This document shows, in pieces, positions 28,256 through 31,108 of a stretch of 44,357 nucleotides of DNA. The stretch is from Clostridia bacterium (GTDB taxonomy: Bacteria; Bacillota; Clostridia; Christensenellales; Aristaeellaceae). The stretch lies in the NCBI GenBank assembly GCA_017459565.1, contig JAFUCP010000105.1, positions 1 through 44,357 on the forward strand, in the 5' to 3' direction. Numbering within the stretch: position 1 is the first letter of the stretch; each line of letters starts with the position of its first letter. The position numbers and the translations under genes were made by a program. The notes below the pieces were generated by a model. The model was not told where the DNA came from. It searched no databases and was given only the letters and a program-made list of their open reading frames with translations.

Positions 28256-30163
28256 CTACAGCGGGATCTCCACCACCTCGGCCATCTTCAGAAGACAGCT
28301 TTCGATCTGCTCCGAGATTTCAGAGGCCATGCGCGCGGTGATTTCTGCGTTCTTCTCGTTTTCAAGGTTGTTGTAAAAATTCTGCTTGACCTCTTCGGTC
28401 AGGCGCTCGATCCGCGCCTCGAAATGTCCCCGGGGCACCAGCTTGCGCATGGGCTTGGGAATATCCATGTTCATAAACACATCCTGCATCTTCTCCTTGC
28501 CCAGAAACAGTATCAGCAAAGAGAGGATCGCACCGGCCACAATGCCGGAAATGCCGCTGGACACTACGGCCAGGCCGCTGCCGCCGCAGATCAGGCCCAC
28601 GATGATCGATATGATGGTGTTGATCAGCCAGGTGAGGCCCTCCACCGCGAAGACATCCTTGGCGTCGATGCGGATATCCACGTCGGACAGGGAGAAGTAG
28701 GAATTCAGGCTCATGGCGCGGTATGGCACGTTGTGCCGCACGCAGATGGGCATGGTTTTTTCCTCCACGTCGAAGGCCACCTGCCTGAGCCACTGGGCGA
28801 TGGGGTTCACCATGAGCGTCTGCGCCTCGTCGGAGTGCAGCCAGTCCTCAATTTCCCGCTGCACCGTTTTGTCGATCTCCGACAGGCGCTTGATATCCCC
28901 GTCCCGCCAGCGGTCAAACACCGGCAGGGCCACACGCCGCAGGATCGGCTCCACCAGCGCGTCCACGATCCGGCGGTAGAGGTCGTCAATGCGCTTTTCC
29001 ACAATGCGCTCCACGGCGCTGGAATCGATCAGCTCCTCCACCTCCCGGCGGAACTGGCGCAGCTCCTCGTCAATGCGCCCGCTCCAGGCCAGGCCCCGGG
29101 ACACTGAAAACTCCGGCTCCGCGCCGGTGATGATCACGGCCTCAGGGTACACCTGGGTACACCAGTCGCGGATCGCCGGAAGCCGGGAAACGCCGCCGGT
29201 CAAAAACAGCAGCTCCGGCCGGTGGTCGTCCAGGCGCGCACGCAGCTGCATAAGGCTGTCCACAAAGGCGTCCCGGAAGGATTTGCCGTTCAGCTGCTCG
29301 GCCCGCCGGTTCAACACGCGGTCCGCCACTTTTTCGTCGATGCGCAGGGTCAGTCGCGCGCCCTCGCCCGTAAGTATGCGCACGGTCTTTTGACAATCGT
29401 TTTCGCGCCAGTAATCCTCATCCGAAAAATACTGCTCCTTGAGGCGGCGGGCGGCGAATTCGCAGTAGCTGCGCCAGGGCGGGCTGGCCTCCAGCGCGCG
29501 CCGCACCGCGCCGGCATCCGCGCTGCCTTTGATGGATTCCTCCAGAATCAGCTCGTCCATGATGCCGCCGCCCAGCCGCACCTCGCCCGCGGTTTGCAGC
29601 TCCACCTCGCGCCCGCCCATGATGAAGGCAAAGTCCGTGGTGGAGGAGCCGATATCCACCACCAGCACGGGCTTGGACATGATATCATAGCCCACCTGGA
29701 AGTGCTTGGACTGGCAGGCGCTGATCAGCGCCGCCCGGGATTCGGAGACGATTCGGGCGGGAGGATAGCCGGTATCCTCGAATATGCGGCGGTAACGCTC
29801 CCGGGCCGCGCGGTCCCAGCCCGCGGGACAGCCGATGTAGAAGCAGCAGTCCTCATCCTTGACCAGGTTGCCGTCGGCATACAGTTCGCCGAGGACGCCC
29901 GCCGCGAAGCGCTTGATGTCCTTCTGGCTCTCAGGCTCCGTCAGAAAACCGCTTTTGAAGCGCAGGGCGCGGCGAACGGCGTGGGTGTCGTAGCAAGCGC
30001 TCTCCCCGATCAACAGCTCGCCGCTTTCCAGCTGGGCGTAGGCGGTCACGAAGCTCTTCGCCTCCCGAACCGCCAGCACCTCCGGAGCCCCGGCGTCATT
30101 CCTGTCCAGGCGACAGACCGCGCTTTCGGCGTCGCCCAGATCAAAGCCATAGTATCTGTTCAT
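28256..30163 (-). CDS. Hsp70-fold ATPase with C-terminal membrane hairpin, no standard substrate-binding domain
   Basis: Residues 1-360 form an actin/Hsp70-type ATPase: phosphate-1 loop GFDLG (6-10), VDIGSSTTDF (169-178) as phosphate-2, and FLTGGVSRLP (320-329) as adenosine motif. The usual TT of the DnaK phosphate-1 loop (DLGTT) is replaced by DA. After it comes a helical, charged region (360-470), a short beta-like stretch, then two hydrophobic segments (about 511-526 and 531-555) and a final amphipathic helix (580-625). DnaK's beta-sandwich substrate domain is absent. The layout suggests an ATPase held at the membrane. GGAG is eight bases before the ATG. It lies 51 bases after a two-TM protein gene that probably encodes its partner. 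Function is unknown; a specialised chaperone or stress device is inference. Confidence 0.85.
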   Translation of the reverse strand: MNRYYGFDLGDAESAVCRLDRNDAGAPEVLAVREAKSFVTAYAQLESGELLIGESACYDTHAVRRALRFKSGFLTEPESQKDIKRFAAGVLGELYADGNLVKDEDCCFYIGCPAGWDRAARERYRRIFEDTGYPPARIVSESRAALISACQSKHFQVGYDIMSKPVLVVDIGSSTTDFAFIMGGREVELQTAGEVRLGGGIMDELILEESIKGSADAGAVRRALEASPPWRSYCEFAARRLKEQYFSDEDYWRENDCQKTVRILTGEGARLTLRIDEKVADRVLNRRAEQLNGKSFRDAFVDSLMQLRARLDDHRPELLFLTGGVSRLPAIRDWCTQVYPEAVIITGAEPEFSVSRGLAWSGRIDEELRQFRREVEELIDSSAVERIVEKRIDDLYRRIVDALVEPILRRVALPVFDRWRDGDIKRLSEIDKTVQREIEDWLHSDEAQTLMVNPIAQWLRQVAFDVEEKTMPICVRHNVPYRAMSLNSYFSLSDVDIRIDAKDVFAVEGLTWLINTIISIIVGLICGGSGLAVVSSGISGIVAGAILSLLILFLGKEKMQDVFMNMDIPKPMRKLVPRGHFEARIERLTEEVKQNFYNNLENEKNAEITARMASEISEQIESCLLKMAEVVEIPL

Positions 30164-30181
30164 GCGTATATCTCCATATAG

Positions 30182-30215
30182 ACTTTAGTCTGTTTGCATG
30201 TACTTCAGTCTGTTT
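30182..30215. repeat. 14-bp direct repeat, 20-bp period, between the membrane-protein and Hsp70-like genes
   Basis: ACTTTAGTCTGTTT (30182-30195) and ACTTCAGTCTGTTT (30202-30215) differ at one base and start 20 bp apart, about two helix turns. They fill the 51-base gap; the second overlaps the TAA of the upstream gene by one base. They could be a protein-binding site or chance. Confidence 0.5.
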
Positions 30216-31108
30216 TATCGTGTTGAGGAGGCCAGTCCCTTCCTGAGCAGCTTGCCCTCCGAAACCAGCGCCGGGCGGATGGTGCCCGGGTGCTGAGCCG
30301 GGAGAAATTCAAACCAGCCGTCCCGGCCTTCGGCATAGTCCACGATATCGATGCCCGCGTTGTGCAGGAAGAAGCGTATGGCGGAAGCAGATTCCAGACC
30401 GCTGTCGCTTTGATCGGAATAGGCCGTTTCCAGCAGTTCCGCGAAAAGCTCCAGCTCCGCCGCGGGCACCCCGCCCACGGGCGCAAGCTCCGCCTCCCGC
30501 TGGACGTGCGCGACGTTCTCCTGGCGGATGCGCTCCAGCTGGCCGTCCGCCTGGAGCATGGCCCCGCGCAGGCAGTGCCAAGCCTTTTCGGCGTCCACAA
30601 GGTACTCCGTACGGACCATGTCCACGCGCGCATCCGGCTTTGATTTGCCGGGCTTGGAGGCGCGCAGGCCGGATAAGAACAGGCATCCGCCGCCCAGCAG
30701 CGTGGGCAGCAGCACCTTCAAAAAGGCCAGCGCCCCGCCCGTCTGCCCGCCGATCAGCATACCGATCACCGAAGCCAGCACCAGCAGCGCCCCAGCAATC
30801 AGCAGCACCAGCGTCAATACATCCATGCGCAGGCCCTTGCGCCCTTCGGCCTCGTATTCCTTTTTCCACGCCCGTGTCTCGCCCACCGCGTCCATGAGGG
30901 GCAGCGTGTTCTTCATTGCCTGTAAAATGTGCTGGGCGCTGTCCCGCTGGGCCGCGTCCTCGCAACGCTCCACATAGCGGTACATGACCCGGTCGATCGC
31001 CTTCTCCAGCACGGCCTGGGCCGAAGCGAGGGCGCGGTCCGACGCGATGTTCGCAAGCACCATGTCCCTGTCCTCGTCCAGCAGCGCCGCGAGAGTGAAC
31101 TTATCCAT
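30215..31108 (-). CDS. Two-TM protein of unknown function, probable partner of the Hsp70-like ATPase
   Basis: I do not recognise a named family. The 297 residues have an N-terminal helical, charged region (1-90), two membrane segments (about 97-119 and 127-147), a basic loop, then a helical region (165-240). A compact C-terminal end (245-295) contains GIDIVDYAEG, DGWFEFLP and GTIRPALVSEGKLLRKGLA. The last motif (GT, hydrophobic stretch, GKLL, basic, hydrophobic) weakly recalls the GrpE beta-domain, and GrpE is the nucleotide exchange factor of DnaK. With the Hsp70-like gene next in line, an exchange-factor-like partner is a reasonable guess but not shown. GGGAGG is eight bases before the ATG. 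The gene follows the amylase gene by 46 bases. Confidence 0.8.
   Translation of the reverse strand: MDKFTLAALLDEDRDMVLANIASDRALASAQAVLEKAIDRVMYRYVERCEDAAQRDSAQHILQAMKNTLPLMDAVGETRAWKKEYEAEGRKGLRMDVLTLVLLIAGALLVLASVIGMLIGGQTGGALAFLKVLLPTLLGGGCLFLSGLRASKPGKSKPDARVDMVRTEYLVDAEKAWHCLRGAMLQADGQLERIRQENVAHVQREAELAPVGGVPAAELELFAELLETAYSDQSDSGLESASAIRFFLHNAGIDIVDYAEGRDGWFEFLPAQHPGTIRPALVSEGKLLRKGLASSTR

Follow-up and report, generated by a model that had tools for sequence, protein, structure and literature searches.

Hsp70 proteins are best known as chaperones that are soluble and bind peptides. Here, we describe two adjacent genes, A and B, in a 44,357-nucleotide stretch of DNA (the window) that makes up contig JAFUCP010000105.1 of a Clostridia bacterium in the family Aristaeellaceae (assembly GCA_017459565.1). 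A preliminary description of the locus, made from its sequence, had proposed an Hsp70-like ATPase tethered to the membrane and paired with a protein having two transmembrane (TM) segments. We confirm that the observation is real: A codes for an Hsp70-class ATPase with a hydrophobic hairpin, and B for a co-conserved two-TM partner. Both open reading frames (ORFs) are open throughout their coordinates (Table 1). They are on the minus strand, B coming first and A following after a gap of 51 bases.

Table 1. Genes A and B and their parts, in window coordinates
Feature	Position	Strand	Evidence
Gene A, 635 residues, Hsp70-class ATPase with hydrophobic hairpin	28256..30163	-	ORF; Pfam HSP70 (7e-6); hhalign to DnaK
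Gene B, 297 residues, two-TM partner upstream of A	30215..31108	-	ORF; position beside A
A residues 1-339, Hsp70 nucleotide-binding domain	29147..30163	-	hhalign to DnaK; six invariant residues
A residues 365-505, no known family, located where Hsp70 has its substrate-binding domain	28649..29071	-	PDB and Pfam profile comparisons
A residues 510-555, tight glycine-rich hydrophobic hairpin (CGGSGLA...G..G)	28499..28636	-	Hydropathy; 51/51 A proteins
A residues 556-635, tail ending VEIPL	28259..28498	-	Alignment of A proteins
B residues 97-145, two hydrophobic segments, loop of about 11 residues	30674..30820	-	63/64 B proteins
B residues 218-297, conserved tail	30218..30457	-	Consensus of 102 B proteins

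Domain architecture of A and B

Judged from its sequence, gene A is an Hsp70-class ATPase. Pfam HSP70 matches it above the cut-off (E-value 7e-6), over residues 110-209 only, and hhalign comparison with nine DnaK proteins from the phylum gives a probability of 97.4% over 300 columns, spanning residues 1-339. Among the PDB matches listed (best 60 of 97) all are Hsp70s, the top one at 2.2e-7. The phosphate-1, phosphate-2 and adenosine motifs of the Hsp70 superfamily nucleotide-binding domain (NBD) are all present – G6FDLG10, V169DIGSSTTDF178 and F320LTGGVSRLP329 – and the preliminary description had numbered them correctly. D8, K70, E141, D170, T175 and D177 are invariant in 51/51 aligned A proteins, a set that includes the window protein, serves for all counts of invariance and hydropathy in A, and has a mean column identity of 70%. 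In the hhalign alignment these six residues, including the Hsp70-type lysine K70, fall on the catalytic set of DnaK, whose numbering (D8, K70, E171, D194, T199 and D201) and residue roles we take to be as usually given.

Weak matches of A to MreB, BeeR and MamK (0.0017 to 0.042) could instead point to a membrane-bound, polymerising actin-like scaffold of the MreB or MamK kind, with B as its anchor, and a distant relative of A from Calothrix matches actin-like models only, below the cut-off (ParM_N at 0.003, MreB-like_C at 0.014). HSP70 nevertheless outscores the actin-like models, both for the window protein (7e-6 versus 0.0017) and for a relative in genome G012 (5e-15 versus 1e-7), and with the Hsp70-type lysine invariant we consider such a scaffold highly improbable.

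Beyond the ATPase domain the resemblance to DnaK stops. hhalign finds nothing of weight past residue 339 and the C-terminal profile of A has no Hsp70 match; the halt of the DnaK alignment at this residue supports the absence of a DnaK beta-sandwich, as had been proposed. Sequence comparison detects neither a DnaK-type substrate-binding domain (SBD) nor an alpha lid after the NBD. The interdomain linker of DnaK is hydrophobic, of the VLLLDV type, and no such linker is seen in A residues 355-375, the DnaK alignment ending earlier. About 140 residues, a predicted tight hydrophobic hairpin and an 80-residue tail stand in for the substrate-binding half of Hsp70. This C-terminal region has two matches among solved structures (PDB, profile A3; the better at 0.48) and weak, scattered matches to Pfam in 27 members.

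The hydrophobic segments, previously placed within residues 511-555, lie at 516-534 and 537-555 by Kyte-Doolittle hydropathy, with almost no loop between them; they are present in 51/51 A proteins, and also in the relatives of A from G012 and Calothrix. The tail had been called amphipathic, which for the window protein proved no better than chance, since 174 of 2000 shuffles were equally amphipathic. Its last five residues, VEIPL (28259-28273), are invariant in the 51 proteins of the near clade and not in distant relatives, and may be a docking tail.

An NTPase followed by a middle region, a tight hydrophobic hairpin and a tail, and accompanied by a second two-TM protein, recalls the mitofusin-like layout, in which a GTPase is joined to a membrane paddle. 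It is through this architecture alone that A and B might be taken for a membrane-remodelling or tethering machine, with an Hsp70 engine at the position of the mitofusin-like GTPase and the hairpins forming the paddle. We think this distinctly unlikely: the NTPase of A is of the Hsp70 class and not a dynamin-type GTPase domain, and likeness to the dynamin family comes down to one weak Dynamin_M match (0.13) in 1 of 27 members.

Gene B codes for a protein with an N-terminal stretch followed by two hydrophobic segments and, at the C-terminus, a conserved tail. The segments (residues 97-115 and 127-145) are present, at the threshold used, in 63 of 64 B proteins, bearing out the earlier prediction of a two-TM protein directly upstream of A. 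Lysine and arginine outnumber aspartate and glutamate in their flanks, and both ends of B are for this reason probably cytoplasmic. The tail has the consensus yLh..gie.vdY..e....Fd..P....gTirPAlv..g.ll.kGlA (102 B proteins). No library assigns a family to B, the best match being a holin model at 0.0004, under its cut-off; the solved structures that B matches, at 0.042 for the best, are for the most part those of membrane proteins, along with a designed channel, and PHROGs and PADLOC offer no useful family for A or B.

Co-conservation and distribution of the pair

A search for relatives of A found 83, of which 80 were kept; all are from Firmicutes assemblies by title, and many of the titles mention the gut of ruminants or other herbivores. 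B lies upstream of A in 75 of the 80. Four of the five misses lie at contig ends, three of them starting inside A (L014, L077 and L079) and one having 55 bases upstream (L039), and the fifth is a true exception (L024). For 73 of the 75, B and A are -4 to 141 bases apart, and for the remaining two 278 and 1281 bases (L020 and L078); at L078 (192-3386) the match to A extends over an unusually long piece of DNA, as though something interrupted it.

A further 52 loci were scanned in the window's own family, nine of which hold A genes already in the set of 80, leaving 43 counted as new. Of these, 36 have a same-strand B upstream of A, the matches at L208 (5e-5) and L215 (2e-4) being weak; the seven misses comprise four contig ends (L182, L194, L213 and L216) and three real absences (L200, L201 and L206). 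B is also present upstream of A in G432 and G539. In four of the 36, B and A stand 0.8-1.6 kb apart (L178, L183, L184 and L187). A P-loop kinase-like protein is found in all three of the 1.3-1.6 kb inserts at L183, L184 and L187, together with differing proteins that read as a methyltransferase, an acetyltransferase or others, while an ankyrin-like protein lies between B and A at L178. L215 (G600:C69) has a tandem pair of A relatives downstream of its weakly matching B.

A conjugative plasmid found in Calothrix brevissima carries a full-length relative of A (25.5%, 7e-68). A two-TM protein just upstream matches, at 8e-17, a B profile built without it, and the B tail motif (3e-6) lies in another frame overlapping the end of that protein, both values being from small sets of frames. 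The B gene here (L163:6997-7862) is seemingly split across frames, which may reflect a frameshift or a sequencing error.

Overall, the DNA upstream of A is readable at 118 loci. B precedes A on the same strand at 114 of these, and at 109 the two are no more than about 300 bases apart, a regularity from which we conclude that A and B are a pair, and a near-obligatory one. The 118 exclude G012, where the upstream protein was unrecovered by the B profile built without it. The A relative of G012 matches at 2e-10 with the single window protein and 3e-24 with the A profile (19-26% identity). Directly upstream (L135, G012:C29) is a protein of 349 residues that contains hydrophobic segments and ends in RPIIISGEVRKKGL plus eight residues, its tail looking similar to that of B; its strong scores come from profile A4, which includes the protein itself.

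Among 150 genomes of the family, A was found in 52 and B in 50, with 44 having both, six B only and eight A only; B is therefore present in 44 of 52 A-positive and 6 of 98 A-negative genomes. After correction these become 50 of 53 and 0 of 97. The correction leaves out five B-only genomes whose weak matches are confined to the hydrophobic segments (G551, G511, G650, G668 and G686), moves G566, where the contig ends within an A gene that starts next to B, to the A-positive set, and counts as B-positive five A-only genomes in which B emerged from a local scan (L185, L186, L190, L204 and L208) that was applied to A-positive genomes and not to A-negative ones. The remaining A-only genomes are G635, at a contig end, and G556 and G673, which are without B. 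At the A loci of these last two (L201 and L200 between them) the gene upstream of A reads as a kinase-like protein with leucine-rich-type repeats, and at L200 a small multi-TM protein lies between it and A. Fisher tests give about 1e-34 for a table of 49/3/1/97 and 2e-28 for 44/8/1/97, the genomes being related and not independent samples.

Two genomes have both genes in unlinked form: on different contigs in G603, which could stem from a binning error, and about 120 kb apart on one contig in G655. Their joint presence without linkage suggests a functional bond and not only inheritance as an operon. Over 48 pairs, distances among A proteins are correlated with those among B proteins (Spearman 0.62), as could result from shared ancestry alone. 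The co-conservation on which the preliminary description had staked the pairing is thus seen both at the loci and across genomes.

A whole-protein search with A matched 15 of 299 phylum genomes, 13 with G000 and G012 set aside, and 11 of those 13 yielded DnaK-type sequence on reading of the sequence starts. With a profile of the C-terminal part (which includes the G012 relative), matches came from 3 of 398 phylum genomes, including the window's own genome and one junk match with stops, and from 3 of 151 genomes of the order. In a tree of 90 A proteins the window falls in a clade of 51 rows supported by an approximate likelihood ratio test (SH-aLRT 100), which also spans Lachnospiraceae, Erysipelotrichaceae, Oscillospiraceae and Anaerovoracaceae, and includes a few further genera of the family to which the window belongs (L022, L023 and L024, from G578, G604 and G603); 37 other rows of the family fall outside it. 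The grouping of the window with other families, apart from these 37 rows, suggests that A has been transferred between bacterial families, in a tree that is midpoint-rooted, has several long branches and may include binning errors.

A plasmid search returned one full-length relative of A, that of Calothrix, which has integrase genes on both sides; viral contigs contain no relative by near-kin patterns. Among phage records, two short unverified Listeria contigs match the ATPase part only, and a scan of one of them for B gave nothing above the inclusion line.

The patchy spread (3/398 phylum genomes, own and junk matches included, against 52/150 in the family), the transfer suggested by the grouping of the window with Lachnospiraceae, Erysipelotrichaceae and Anaerovoracaceae, and the conjugative plasmid copy between integrase genes would all suit a mobile module for stress response or defence, whose two hairpin proteins would act on the membrane once a trigger is received. 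PADLOC, however, yields just a 2TM effector match for A (0.038) and none for B, the viral contigs are empty by the patterns used, and the 51 A proteins keep 70% mean column identity with an invariant active site; we judge such a role very unlikely.

The GrpE question and a possible mode of action

The preliminary description had seen in the tail of B a weak likeness to the beta-domain of GrpE and proposed that B might be an exchange factor. Aligned by hhalign with 29 GrpE proteins, full-length B gives a probability of 4.4% over 8 columns. The B tail against the GrpE tail reaches 15.1% in local mode with a score of 21.2, above 200/200 column shuffles (maximum 18.5), and in global mode scores 3.0 against a shuffle mean of 3.4, which is no signal; the profile comparison thus stands slightly above its null locally and not globally. 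With 102 B proteins the tail gives 18.8% on a helix block, the RPAlV block forming a second, colinear alignment; these local alignments span 10-15 columns, and the top score among 55 other windows in the same comparison is 18.4. Summed over the two blocks the score is 34.4, compared with at most 30.4 for the 122 windows taken from other proteins; this sum is reached by 1/200 block shuffles and 0/200 column shuffles, and one half of the GrpE set scores 278 against the other. Neither B of the window nor ten B tails match Pfam GrpE (PF01025), and GrpE is absent among the matches listed (best 25 of 77 families) for 64 B proteins.

These values bear on whether B is a true exchange factor derived from GrpE, its tail a shortened beta-domain and the pair a membrane form of DnaK-GrpE. 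Two short blocks, a helix with L...G.e and RPAlV, do match in the same order, and B has an Hsp70-class gene as its neighbour, like a divergent GrpE in G012 (C18). The alignments are nonetheless of low probability (4-19%), 8-15 columns long and no better than shuffles in global mode, the summed score is far from that between GrpE halves, and the Pfam model is silent. The RPA strand lies near the C-terminus of GrpE, whereas in B the G.LL.KG segment comes after it; and GrpE is soluble, without membrane segments, unlike B with its hydrophobic pair. A GrpE-like exchange factor is not established, and descent from GrpE appears to us unlikely; the resemblance of the B tail is best treated as a lead. 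At the locus in G012:C18 (L096), a protein that reads as J-domain-like, the divergent GrpE and an Hsp70 stand in a row, apart from the main GrpE of that genome.

The interpretation we favour, whose chances we put at about even, is that A and B are a membrane-tethered Hsp70-class ATPase and a dedicated partner that regulates its nucleotide cycle. Joined in a two-component complex, the two would sit at the cytoplasmic face of the cell membrane, A being placed on that side because its ATPase motif at residue 6 leaves no room for a signal peptide, and B because of its lysine- and arginine-rich flanks. Opening and closing of the ATPase domain would move membrane-embedded parts, or a membrane client, and not a peptide clamp, the hairpin of A carrying the motion to the membrane or client. 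B, anchored in the membrane, would dock its conserved C-terminal tail on A and control the nucleotide cycle; it is probably the regulator of A.

Several observations weigh against this interpretation. The phosphate-1 loop is GDAES in A and GTTNS in DnaK, so that ATP hydrolysis by A is not assured. Membrane insertion of A and B is predicted from hydropathy alone, and the charges flanking the A hairpin form no clear-cut pattern. A is present in G556 and G673 with no B found by profile search or local scan, and the protein upstream of the G012 relative was recovered by neither of the B profiles built without it.

Set beside known systems, A is a new variant of the Hsp70 superfamily with its own partner family, B. 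It shares with DnaK, which acts with GrpE and DnaJ, an alignable ATPase domain and the catalytic residues, but shows neither a DnaK-type linker nor a substrate-binding domain in sequence comparison and has a hydrophobic hairpin instead, and its partner is a two-TM protein with no proven GrpE or J-domain. The best NCBIfam match of A is PRK11678 (7e-8, residues 301-359), which we take to be the model for YegD-type Hsp70-like proteins; A scores only 31.7 bits against its cut-off of 331, and we know of no membrane hairpin in YegD. Full-text searches, whose coverage leaves out most subscription journals and preprints, returned no paper on such a pair. Another Hsp70-like protein in a dedicated prokaryotic gene set is CnuD of the CoCoNuT systems, which is reported to have an NBD and an SBD, with Walker-like motifs described as degenerate, and to sit in McrBC-type restriction loci (PMC11090510), whereas A is without a detectable SBD and has B as its only widely conserved companion.

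If the interpretation is right, the Hsp70 engine would have a different output, a membrane hairpin standing where a peptide clamp is expected, and the pair would offer a simple two-gene system for asking how Hsp70 motion couples to a membrane. The pair is conserved and has probably spread between bacterial families with its ATPase and catalytic residues kept. A broader version, which we regard as doubtful, is that it is an old two-protein machine of many gut Firmicutes and a cyanobacterial plasmid: an Hsp70 motor without a clamp, acting directly on the bilayer or on membrane proteins and reset by its membrane-bound partner.

Neighbouring genes and host chaperones

In the window the pair is flanked by an alpha-amylase gene ahead of B and by a peptidase C26 gene behind A. 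Neither neighbour is a regular companion, the amylase recurring in 4 and the peptidase in 6 of 80 related loci; a glycosyltransferase, another neighbour in the window, recurs in 9 of the 80. Crude clustering of the proteins at these 80 loci gave no further widely conserved neighbour beyond A and B: the next cluster covers 18 loci, its representative being an antisense reading across A, and the one after that 11.

The host genome (3.4 Mb in 249 contigs) has a single copy of A. Neither GrpE nor DnaJ is on the contig of the window, as the preliminary description had noted for the locus. A search of the whole genome placed one GrpE on C110, adjoining DnaK sequence, and gave three DnaJ matches: one on C67 together with the end of a DnaK, one on C211 accompanied by a second Hsp70, and one on C29. 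With these genes on other contigs, the host also has the usual chaperone genes.

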